Both the position numbers and the translations under genes were made by a program. Shown piece after piece: positions 12,013 through 14,946 of a stretch of 64,000 bases of DNA. The DNA is from Polyangiaceae bacterium (GTDB lineage Bacteria > Myxococcota_A > Polyangia > Polyangiales > Polyangiaceae): contig JANXOF010000045.1 of the NCBI GenBank assembly GCA_025353725.1, forward strand, positions 62,001 to 126,000. The letters are read 5' to 3'. The notes below the pieces were generated by a model, which was not told the DNA's origin, ran no database searches, and worked only from the letters and a program-made list of their open reading frames with translations. Each line of letters opens with the position of its first letter. The first letter of the stretch is position 1.

Positions 12013-12175
12013 CCCCGTCGCTCCGATCCGCGCCTTTCGTGAGATTCGCAGCGCGTTCGCGCTCTTTCCGGTGACCTGAGAAAGGTCGGACGGGTCGACC
12101 AAATGCACCGTCAGCGACCGGCGTGTTGTCACTTATTTGGCCCTTTGCTTTCGGGTATGTGATCCCTACGCCGAG
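12013..12175 (+). promoter_or_regulatory. Leader region upstream of ftsA
   Basis: This 163-base gap breaks the otherwise tightly coupled cluster. It contains a small perfect hairpin, GACCT-GAGAA-AGGTC (12073-12087), and the palindrome GGTCGACC just after it. I could not identify a convincing -35/-10 pair. A promoter or processing site for ftsA is plausible because of the gap alone. Confidence 0.3.
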
Positions 12176-13471
12176 ATGAGCACGTCGGCTTCGCAAGGGG
12201 AGATCGTCGTTGGCCTTGACATAGGCACGACGAAGGTATGCGCCGTGGTCGGCGAGATCGCCGAAGACGGCATCACCATCCTAGGTGTCGGTTCGGTACC
12301 GTGTCGCGGCCTCCGCAAAGGTATTGTCAGCAACATCGACTGGACGGTTCGCGCTATCAAAGACGCTATCGAAGCTGCCCAGACCATGGCTGGCGTCGAA
12401 ATTCGCACGGTTTACGCCGGGGTGGCCGGAAGCCACATTCGGTCCCAGCTGTCTGACGGAGTTGCGGCTATCGCCGGCGGAGAGGTCACTCGCGCCGACG
12501 TAGAGCGCGTGCTCGAAGGCGCCCGGGCCATTCCGGTCGATGCCGATAGGCAAATTTTGCACGTCCTCCCGCGGGAATACATCGTCGACATTCAAGACGG
12601 GATCCGCGACCCGATCGGGATGAGCGGCGTTCGCCTAGGCGCAAAGGTGAACCTCATCACGGCTGCAACGAGCTGCGTCCAAAACGTCATTCGCTGCGCC
12701 GAGCGCTGCGGGCTCGTCGTCGCCGACGTCGTCCTCGAGCCCCTCGCCAGCGCCGAGGCTGTCCTCTCCGACGACGAGCGAGAAATCGGTGTCGCGGTAG
12801 TCGACATCGGCGGCGGGACTACGGACATTCTTATTTACGTCGATGGCGGAATTGCTCATGCGAGTGTGATTCCCGCCGGCGGAAACAACATCACCAACGA
12901 CATCGCGGCGGGGCTGCGCACGCCCATGGCCGAAGCCGACCGGCTCAAGCGTCTGGCCGGGTGCGCTCTTGGGCGCATGGTTGCGGACGAGGAAGACATC
13001 GAGGTTCCCGGCGTCGGCGGACAAAAGCCCCGTCGCACCCCGCGCCGCGTGCTGTCAGATATCATCGAGCCGCGCGTCGAAGAAATCTTCGCTGTCGTCC
13101 GAAAGCGTATTGAAGACACCGGGCTTCTCGAGCAGCTATCCGCAGGCGTCGTGCTCACGGGCGGCGCTGTTCTCCTTGAAGGAACGACGGAGCTCGCGGA
13201 AGAGATCCTTGGAATGCCCGTCCGCATTGGATTTCCCAGCGGCGTACGTGGGATAACGCAGCTCGTTCATGGGCCGCAGTACGCGACCGGCGTGGGGCTC
13301 GTCAAGTACGGCGCGCAGGCGATAGCGGACGCTCACGCGCGCGCCGCCGCCCCAGCTCACTCGATGATGCGCATGACGGCCTCCGCCACGAAGAAATTCG
13401 AAGACGAGCGGCCCGAAGACGCACTCAAGTCACAGTCGAAGCTCTGGGAGTGGCTGAAAGCCGCTTTCTGA
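12176..13471 (+). CDS. ftsA: Cell division ATPase FtsA
   Basis: FtsA is the actin-like protein that tethers FtsZ to the inner membrane and recruits later division proteins. The chosen ATG gives 431 residues; an upstream in-frame start at 12137 would add 13 residues without clear support. Visible motifs are LDIGTTKVCAVVGE (phosphate 1), the SHI/MTF-type 1C domain, VDIGGGTTDI (phosphate 2) and LTGGAVLLEG. The C-terminus KLWEWLKAAF forms the amphipathic membrane-targeting helix. It is followed after 140 bases by ftsZ. Confidence 0.96.
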   Translation: MSTSASQGEIVVGLDIGTTKVCAVVGEIAEDGITILGVGSVPCRGLRKGIVSNIDWTVRAIKDAIEAAQTMAGVEIRTVYAGVAGSHIRSQLSDGVAAIAGGEVTRADVERVLEGARAIPVDADRQILHVLPREYIVDIQDGIRDPIGMSGVRLGAKVNLITAATSCVQNVIRCAERCGLVVADVVLEPLASAEAVLSDDEREIGVAVVDIGGGTTDILIYVDGGIAHASVIPAGGNNITNDIAAGLRTPMAEADRLKRLAGCALGRMVADEEDIEVPGVGGQKPRRTPRRVLSDIIEPRVEEIFAVVRKRIEDTGLLEQLSAGVVLTGGAVLLEGTTELAEEILGMPVRIGFPSGVRGITQLVHGPQYATGVGLVKYGAQAIADAHARAAAPAHSMMRMTASATKKFEDERPEDALKSQSKLWEWLKAAF

Positions 13472-13611
13472 TTCAGAAAACTACGCGTTACCTTTCTGTC
13501 TGATTCGCATAAGTAACGCGTAAACGAGGAAGAGGCGCCTCGCTTACGCGTCGTGACTCGCGCACCCCGCGAGTGTTTCGTTCATACCAATTCCCGGGAG
13601 GCCAGAGGCTC
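13472..13611 (+). promoter_or_regulatory. Structured leader between ftsA and ftsZ
   Basis: Three ACGCGT boxes start at 13483, 13516 and 13546, spaced 33 and 30 bases. The first two lie in a perfect 9-base inverted repeat (13483-13491 with 13513-13521). The second and third lie in a 14-base inverted repeat with one mismatch (13516-13529 with 13538-13551, 8-base loop). These two stems share bases, so they cannot form together. A third perfect hairpin, ACTCGCG-CACCC-CGCGAGT (13556-13574), is followed by GTTTCGTT. An SD-like GGGAGG lies at about 13595-13601 before ftsZ. This could be an attenuator-like leader or a set of phased protein-binding sites. Confidence 0.55.
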
Positions 13612-14946
13612 ATGACGTTTTCGATCGAGTTCGCGGACGAGCAGCAAGAATACCAGGCACGAATCAAGGTGATCGGCTGCGGCGGCTCCGGCGGCAACGC
13701 GGTCAATACCATGATCAACTTCGGCCTCGAAGGCGTCGAGTTCATCGTCGTCAACACGGACGCGCAGGCGCTCAACGCCAACGCGGCTCCGACCAAGCTC
13801 AATATTGGTGGCGCGATTACCCGTGGCCTAGGCGCGGGCGCGGACCCAGAGCGCGGTCGCAAGGCCGCCATGGAAGACCACCAACGCATCAAAGAGCTTA
13901 TTAGCGGCGCCGATATGGTGTTTATCTGCGCAGGTATGGGTGGCGGTACCGGAACGGGTGCGGCACCTGTCATCGCCCAACTTGCGCGCGAAGAGGGAGC
14001 GCTGACGGTGGGCGTTGTCACCAAGCCCTTCCTCTTCGAAGGGCGTCAACGCTCGCGTCGCGCGGAGCTCGGCCTTTCCCAGCTCACGGAGCACGTTGAC
14101 ACGCTGATCACGATTCCGAATCAAAAGCTCCTCATGCTCGGTGAGGAGGACCTTTCTTTCATCGATGCGTTCCGCAAGGCCGACGAAGTGCTCTTCCAAG
14201 CTGTCAAGGGCATCAGCGATCTCATCACGCAAAATGGCATCGTCAATGTCGACTTCGCCGACGTGAAGACGGTCATGAACAGCATGGGCCGCGCGCTCAT
14301 GGGAACGGGCATCGCAAAGGGTAACAATCGCGCGCGCCTCGCCGCCGAAATGGCCATCAGTTCGCCGCTCCTTGATGACATTTCCGTCGAGGGTGCGACC
14401 GGAGTGCTCATCAACATCGTGGGTGGTCCGGACCTCAAGATGCGCGAGATTCAAGAAGCCGCGAGCCTTGTTCAGGAGCAGGCGCACGAGGATGCGAACA
14501 TCATCTTCGGCGCGAGCATCGACGAGGCGCTCGGCGAGAATGTGAAGGTCACGGTGATTGCTACCGGTTTCGAGTCGGTTGAACGCATGGCCAGCATGAG
14601 TGAAGGTGCGCGTGTCTCGACGCCTGTTTCTCAGGCCAACACGTCGACGCACTCCGGCTACCAAGACGCACGACAGTATGCGCCGCAGGCAGGCGCGAAC
14701 ATGGGTCACCCAGCCTCGCATCCGTCGCAGCGAGCCGTTTTTCGGCAACCGCCTTCGCCGCAAGCGCAGTCGCGTGTGGTCGAGACAGCTCCCGCGTTCG
14801 CGAGCCGTCGCGTTCCGTCGACTTCACCCGACACCCGCGTATCTCCCGTAAGCGCACGTATCCCTACGCGTGAGCGCGCGAACGCGAACTTCCCGGCGTT
14901 CGAGTCCGATTGGGATGTGCCGGCTTTCCAGCGAAAAGGCCAGTGA
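13612..14946 (+). CDS. ftsZ: Cell division GTPase FtsZ
   Basis: FtsZ is the tubulin-like GTPase that forms the division ring. The ATG at 13612 follows an SD-like GGGAGG and an AGAGG; an open frame reaches back to 13573 but has no better signal. The 444-residue protein has GCGGSGGNAVN, the GTP signature GGGTGTG near residue 110, the T7 loop region NVDFADVKTVM, and a long disordered linker from about residue 340. It ends in the conserved C-terminal peptide DWDVPAFQRK that binds FtsA. It closes the dcw cluster. Confidence 0.97.
   Translation: MTFSIEFADEQQEYQARIKVIGCGGSGGNAVNTMINFGLEGVEFIVVNTDAQALNANAAPTKLNIGGAITRGLGAGADPERGRKAAMEDHQRIKELISGADMVFICAGMGGGTGTGAAPVIAQLAREEGALTVGVVTKPFLFEGRQRSRRAELGLSQLTEHVDTLITIPNQKLLMLGEEDLSFIDAFRKADEVLFQAVKGISDLITQNGIVNVDFADVKTVMNSMGRALMGTGIAKGNNRARLAAEMAISSPLLDDISVEGATGVLINIVGGPDLKMREIQEAASLVQEQAHEDANIIFGASIDEALGENVKVTVIATGFESVERMASMSEGARVSTPVSQANTSTHSGYQDARQYAPQAGANMGHPASHPSQRAVFRQPPSPQAQSRVVETAPAFASRRVPSTSPDTRVSPVSARIPTRERANANFPAFESDWDVPAFQRKGQ

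Follow-up and report, generated by a model that had tools for sequence, protein, structure and literature searches.

A hairpin with a fixed loop in the ftsZ leader, conserved in pairing more than in sequence: a candidate cis-acting RNA

Introduction

The control of FtsZ abundance in bacteria is a long-standing question. ftsZ encodes the protein that forms the bacterial division ring, and in the window (the whole 64,000-nt stretch of DNA that was analysed) it is separated from ftsA by a 140-nt leader. A preliminary description of this locus had read the leader as an attenuator or a tandem operator. The question is whether the leader carries an element controlling ftsZ and, if so, whether that element acts as a DNA operator, as an attenuator or as a structured RNA. 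In the literature examined, control of ftsZ at the RNA level is that of enterobacterial small RNAs, going by the sections of PMC10907235 used here.

Results

The gene upstream of ftsZ, ftsA, occupies positions 12176–13471 (stop at 13471) and ftsZ occupies 13612–14946 (ATG at 13612); these genes, the Shine-Dalgarno-like motif, both hairpins and arm 1 described below are on the + strand. A Shine-Dalgarno-like GGGAGG, read from the sequence, lies at 13596–13601, and CGGGAGG-like motifs are found in many relatives. Three ACGCGT boxes start at 13483, 13516 and 13546, as first reported. Their spacing of 33 and 30 nt would suit a DNA operator built of phased boxes. The window contains 44 ACGCGT sites vs. 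45.7 expected, that is, no enrichment, and when 44 random sites were simulated some triple fell within 63 nt in 3.6% of the runs. Against an operator, no box precedes ftsZ in 93 of the 101 family genomes; seven have a single box, and three boxes are found only in this genome. Moreover, the arms that contain boxes 2 and 3 conserve pairing but not sequence (see below), which favours a folded strand and disfavours a double-stranded operator. On this sequence comparison the boxes are accidental. The operator, which we consider hardly credible, was dropped.

The middle arm (arm 2, 13516–13529) pairs with the third (arm 3, 13538–13551) at 13 of 14 positions around 8 bases, and this part of the preliminary description holds. 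Judged from the sequences, this 13-of-14 helix with its loop AAGAGGCG (13530–13537) is the conserved part of the leader. The hairpin spans 13516–13551 and was modelled with flanks as 13513–13554. In its outer stem, 13516–13523 (containing box 2) pairs with 13544–13551 (containing box 3), and in relatives this pairing is kept more than the sequence. In its inner stem, CGAGG (13525–13529) pairs with CCTCG (13538–13542). Both 3′ arms were assigned from complementarity and from the alignment described below. In its general architecture, a small internal mismatch separates an outer stem (∼8 bp) from an inner stem (4–5 bp), which carries a fixed loop, AAGAGGCG in this genome and RAGAGGCR by consensus.

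Taken by itself, the arm 2/arm 3 hairpin is more stable than shuffled versions of its sequence (z −3.13, 1/200 as good), which holds neither for the whole 140-nt leader (z −0.85, 33/200) nor for the segment 13472–13560 (z −0.88, 36/200). In 158-nt contexts, 64 leaders gave a mean pairing probability of 0.58 for the inner and 0.50 for the outer stem, counted in the octaloop register and thus missing leaders with a shifted loop. Predicted folding in context for about half of the time is a point against a permanently formed structure.

AGAGGC occurs again at 13604–13609, directly 5′ of the ftsZ start codon (CCAGAGGCTCATG), and likewise in L002, while L013 has AGAGGA just before the start codon. 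The copy abutting the start codon could reflect chance or binding-site mimicry.

The comparison across relatives that had been proposed to reveal compensatory changes showed that arms 2 and 3 vary yet stay complementary, and that the boxes are not kept. Within this genus, a hairpin whose loop is AAGAGGCG or AAGAGGCC and whose arms differ but are complementary is present in 10 of 12 genomes; the remaining two (G005 and G008) have no hairpin and no AGAGGC before ftsZ. A gapless alignment (A1) was built from 21 leaders picked by their loop ([AG]AGAGGC), so that the invariance of AGAGGC in all 21 rows reflects the choice. In total 24 sites were picked and 21 entered: L033 and L036 repeat L032, and the loop of L024 is shifted. 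The sites picked did not include L025, and where a leader had two matches (L003, L011 and L023) one was chosen with the folds in view. The rows span distant lineages, with a Sorangium (L034), a Polyangium (L032) and two members of another family (L019 and L022).

In A1, 73.5% of the cells are paired, compared with 50.7% in shuffles (0/500 as high) and 34–45% when the partner was slid by 1–3 columns. The covariation score is 0.534 vs. 0.186 in shuffles (0/500), and the two loop-adjacent pairs are kept in 21/21 rows. Changes on both sides were found in all 14 pairs; shuffles average 11.4 of 14 and 1/500 reaches 14, and by itself this is weak evidence. Overall, covariation supports a helix, as is expected of a cis-acting structured RNA.

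In an arm-swap test, sites were chosen by the loop only, near-copies were removed, and the duplex energy of each site's own arms was compared with that of pairs formed by exchanging arms among sites. Own arms gave −18.4 and swapped arms −11.9 kcal/mol in 59 distinct loci (0/5000 permutations). The 40 loci that were neither in A1 nor near copies of its members gave −17.8 vs. −12.2 kcal/mol (0/5000). An earlier version of the test had yielded 0/2000 in each of the two sets that it used. There, GGCGAG, one of five control words, was also low (15/2000, against 0/2000 for the octamer), which indicates that some arm complementarity is background.

The family is, by inference, Polyangiaceae, with members that include Sorangium cellulosum and Polyangium. 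Counts refer to 101 of its 108 genomes: G044, G075, G088, G096, G106 and G108 had no usable ftsZ start, and G051 (L172) was left out for failing the start search, though the A1-based model matches its leader. A second ftsZ start of G009 (L239) was also left out. The claim of a leader element at ftsZ is borne out: an RAGAGGCV octamer flanked by arms of −14 kcal/mol or better precedes ftsZ in 61 of the 101 genomes, covering 30 of 46 genera, compared with 1.45 expected in dinucleotide shuffles and 0/64 in the adjacent ftsA 3′ coding sequence. Bare AGAGGC is found before ftsZ in 69/101 genomes (8.8 expected in dinucleotide shuffles; 7/64 in the ftsA controls) and is absent from this region in the other 32, G005 and G008 among them. 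Outside the family, the element precedes ftsZ in two genomes (L019 and L022), both from a single other family. When the order (183 genomes) was searched with the strict model, two other out-of-family matches were among those listed (G029 and G131), neither with an ftsZ within 1 kb.

A looser definition (AGGCR, loops of 6–9 nt) reached 71/101 genomes, but was abandoned in favour of the octamer because 18/64 ftsA coding controls also matched. Six ftsZ leaders (L169, L176, L190, L207, L211 and L212) have a variant loop, AAGGCAG or similar, on a GGG/CCC stem at the same place. Such loops are perhaps a diverged form of the hairpin; they were not counted, because their arm-swap support was weak (97/2000). 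In two ftsZ leaders of another family (L026 and L266), GAGGGCGAA lies between short G and C runs ∼40–50 nt before ftsZ and is possibly a distant relative of the element.

A covariance model (R1) was built from A1 and applied to whole genomes, with the best 150 (this genome), 60 (each of the 108 family genomes) or 35 (each genome of the order) first-look candidates scored. In this genome the ftsZ site scored 39.7 bits and the runner-up 21.9 (best 150 of 2398 first-look candidates). Across the 108 family genomes, 29 of the 31 matches listed with E ≤ 7.1e-5 sit just before ftsZ.

Twenty non-ftsZ matches were read, namely two runners-up in this genome, which are antisense in frames with PrsW-protease and DUF790 domains, and 18 others in the family. 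All 20 lie under open frames of at least 150 codons. These frames are weak evidence, because at this G+C content frames are found nearly everywhere; an antisense frame of 178 codons spans the ftsZ site as well, so that overlying frames fail to prove the other matches to be due to chance. A Pfam scan of the longest frame at all 20 sites, and of the second longest at 10, placed four sites inside a domain (L249, L250, L253 and L259) and four in frames whose domain lies at another position (L246, L255, L256 and L258); for the other 12 no Pfam domain was found in the frames scanned. In G092, one match (L255, 1001–1042) scored 32.4 bits; it precedes the domain of a phospholipase A1-like frame by a good distance, and was the sole non-ftsZ site among those read that looked possibly real. 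It may belong to the leader of that gene; before ftsZ, G092 has only the variant loop. The hairpin is strongly linked to ftsZ, although some genomes may also carry it elsewhere.

A further element, CACTTATTTGGCC (12130–12142), begins 46 nt before the ftsA start. It is also found before ftsA in L004, L013 and L023 and before ftsZ in L005–L008, L025 and L239. It has the look of a promoter or operator for the ftsA-ftsZ unit, of which some relatives would have gained a copy at ftsZ. Where it precedes ftsZ, the hairpin lies on its ftsZ side in L006, L007, L008, L025 and L239, and L005 has no hairpin. L239 (G009:C124:1–886) is a second ftsZ start at a contig edge, with its own hairpin and promoter-like element, and resembles G002, G003 and G006; given that G009 has a listed contamination of 7%, it is either a second ftsZ or from foreign contigs.

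In this genome arm 1 (13482–13491, containing box 1) can compete for arm 2. The preliminary description had a perfect 9-base pairing between the two; the pairing is perfect, but is 10/10 in length (13482–13491 with 13513–13522). It is more probable than the outer stem in six of the seven folded stretches that contain arm 1 (0.89 vs. 0.07 for 13472–13611), the exception being 13472–13700 (0.37 vs. 0.54), and the outer stem reaches 0.97 in the two stretches that do not contain arm 1. The two hairpins thus compete in silico here, as had been claimed, but their mutual exclusion is not conserved. Across 64 leaders, the sequence preceding the hairpin is no better a partner for the 5′ arm than shuffled sequence (mean z −0.04); this genome is the outlier (z −3.99), and three others are below −2. 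Since the competitor is not kept, it is a local feature of this genome, and an arm 1 switch was rejected as a conserved mechanism.

The second GC-rich hairpin (13556–13574), followed by GTTTCGTT, is present as had been described. By pattern it is a weak terminator-like site; neither its sequence nor the T run is conserved in relatives. The stretch that separates the hairpin from the ribosome site was folded where it measured ≥22 nt, which gave 50 segments out of 54 distinct leaders. On average these were more stable than their shuffles (mean z −0.66), with 20/50 below −1 and 13/50 below −2; the value for this genome was −2.65. GC-rich hairpins of unrelated sequence are found at this place in L001, L002, L007, L011 and L023. 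Comparable hairpins in part of the relatives led us to drop the idea that it is this species' own, and it may be an optional companion of the conserved hairpin.

These data bear on an attenuator in which arm 2 would pair with either arm 1 or arm 3 and the downstream GC-rich hairpin would be the terminator. It gains from the competition of helices in this genome and from hairpins 3′ of the conserved one being commoner than in shuffles. The competitor is not conserved across the 64 leaders, however; the downstream hairpin has no room in L003, L004, L198 and L226 and no stable fold in L013, and no conserved T run follows those of the relatives. An attenuator is therefore very improbable.

The element lies before ftsZ on the sense strand. 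Its distance to the start codon varies, from 49 to 165 nt in the good cases. In eight leaders the loop starts 49–62 nt before the start codon, which leaves ∼27–40 nt after the helix, ribosome site included. Such spacing leaves no room for a promoter, from which we infer that the hairpin is transcribed with ftsZ there.

Varying distance and a stable helix would also suit an mRNA processing or 5′ stabilisation hairpin, at which general ribonucleases would cut or protect so that the ftsZ segment outlives that of ftsA, with no dedicated regulator involved. Consistent with this, and equally with the main reading given in the Discussion, the 72 family loci with the ftsA end in view (≤700 nt searched) have 41 sites between ftsA and ftsZ and none inside ftsA, and part of the relatives have a second hairpin downstream. 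Processing does not need a fixed loop, however, yet the octamer is enriched together with arms that themselves vary; we regard this explanation as unlikely, while still one to be weighed. A factor that recognises a loop requires just such an arrangement, in which the loop is fixed and the helix is free to vary.

The fixed single-stranded octamer could instead serve as the seed target of a small RNA, by kissing or pairing. Hfq gave a match in 0/23 genomes, in a search in which the named controls gave a signal in 5/14, and Hfq-dependent small RNAs are unlikely partners. Within the leader itself, a hexamer complementary to the loop was found in 7/64 cases vs. 9.6 expected; this lack of enrichment argues against a small-RNA target, and the same count led us to reject base pairing between the loop and other leader segments. 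The chances of a small-RNA target are slim.

CsrA/RsmA sites are short hairpins with a purine-rich loop in a leader, and in this respect resemble the element. A CsrA-type translational repression site would be in keeping with a G-rich loop in an mRNA leader and with the presence of CsrA in some relatives (7/29). In contrast to such sites, neither AAGAGGCG nor the consensus RAGAGGCR contains GGA, and CsrA was matched in 0/12 genomes of this genus, including this one, which refutes a CsrA site there unless the protein was missed in all twelve. This possibility is next to nil. KH_KhpA-B domains are present in 23/23 genomes. KhpA/KhpB-type proteins are first candidate partners and no more, because the genomes lacking the hairpin (G005 and G008) have them too.

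Discussion

The hairpin's structure and position are well supported, and its partner and the direction of control are inferred. Our main reading, to which we give a probability of about 0.6, is that the ftsZ leader contains a cis-acting RNA hairpin whose loop is read by a trans-acting factor, probably an RNA-binding protein. According to this proposal, the hairpin would sit in the ftsA-ftsZ intercistronic RNA and act in cis on ftsZ. The factor would read the loop, shown on a helix of any sequence, and would alter how the ftsZ portion of the message is translated or how stable it is, which would let the level of FtsZ be set apart from that of FtsA. Because the distance to the start codon varies, the hairpin would probably be a docking or processing platform rather than a direct cover of the ribosome site.

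The preliminary description knew of no such element upstream of ftsZ, and the leader matches no Rfam family at threshold. With Rfam 15, neither this leader nor any of 40 other ftsZ loci gave a match at the gathering score, and no family of any name reaches threshold on these leaders. The families are alike only in kind, as cis-regulatory leader RNAs. Below threshold, a twister match lies inside ftsZ, and six matches were obtained in 20 loci, of which one, to a flavivirus SL6 hairpin, scores 20.3 bits against a cut-off of 38.3 and coincides in part with the variant hairpin of L169. A motif named ftsZ-DE reportedly stems from the line of work of a 2017 survey of candidate structured RNAs. Judged by titles and the opening lines of abstracts, no paper in the open-access literature searched describes such an element.

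Two known systems are comparable in part. In S. pneumoniae, KhpA/KhpB (EloR/Jag) were proposed to act on leaders including the 5′ untranslated region of ftsA mRNA, after Zheng et al. 2017, as related in the sections of PMC6403258 used here; rescue by extra FtsA was not reproduced by the authors of PMC6403258, according to the same sections. There, as here, a division-ring gene is under proposed leader control by an RNA-binding protein, but the gene is ftsA rather than ftsZ and no hairpin is named in those sections (PMC6403258). The enterobacterial small RNAs DinR and DicF act on ftsZ mRNA by pairing at the ribosome-binding site, and DinR needs Hfq, in the account given by the sections of PMC10907235 used here. 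Both cases have post-transcriptional control of ftsZ via its leader, which here is proposed; in contrast, the present hairpin is in cis and further upstream, and Hfq was not found in the 23 genomes (PMC10907235 for DinR/DicF). The element is thus a candidate for a new cis-regulatory RNA, of a known kind, with a place and form not met in the literature searched.

More speculatively, and with some doubt on our part, the hairpin may in most carriers be the only site in the cell for a dedicated RNA-binding regulator that sets FtsZ apart from FtsA in Polyangiaceae, a lineage in which Hfq and, in this genus, CsrA were not found. Such a regulator might contain a KH domain, or might be a division protein that controls its own mRNA. 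Maintained before ftsZ through compensatory changes in 30 of 46 genera, the hairpin provides a 36-nt bait with which to fish out a putative regulator, and offers a ready mutational test, in which the arms are broken and restored and the loop is changed. In many Polyangium-type soil bacteria, the hairpin is a candidate for a control element of ftsZ mRNA that had not been recognised before.
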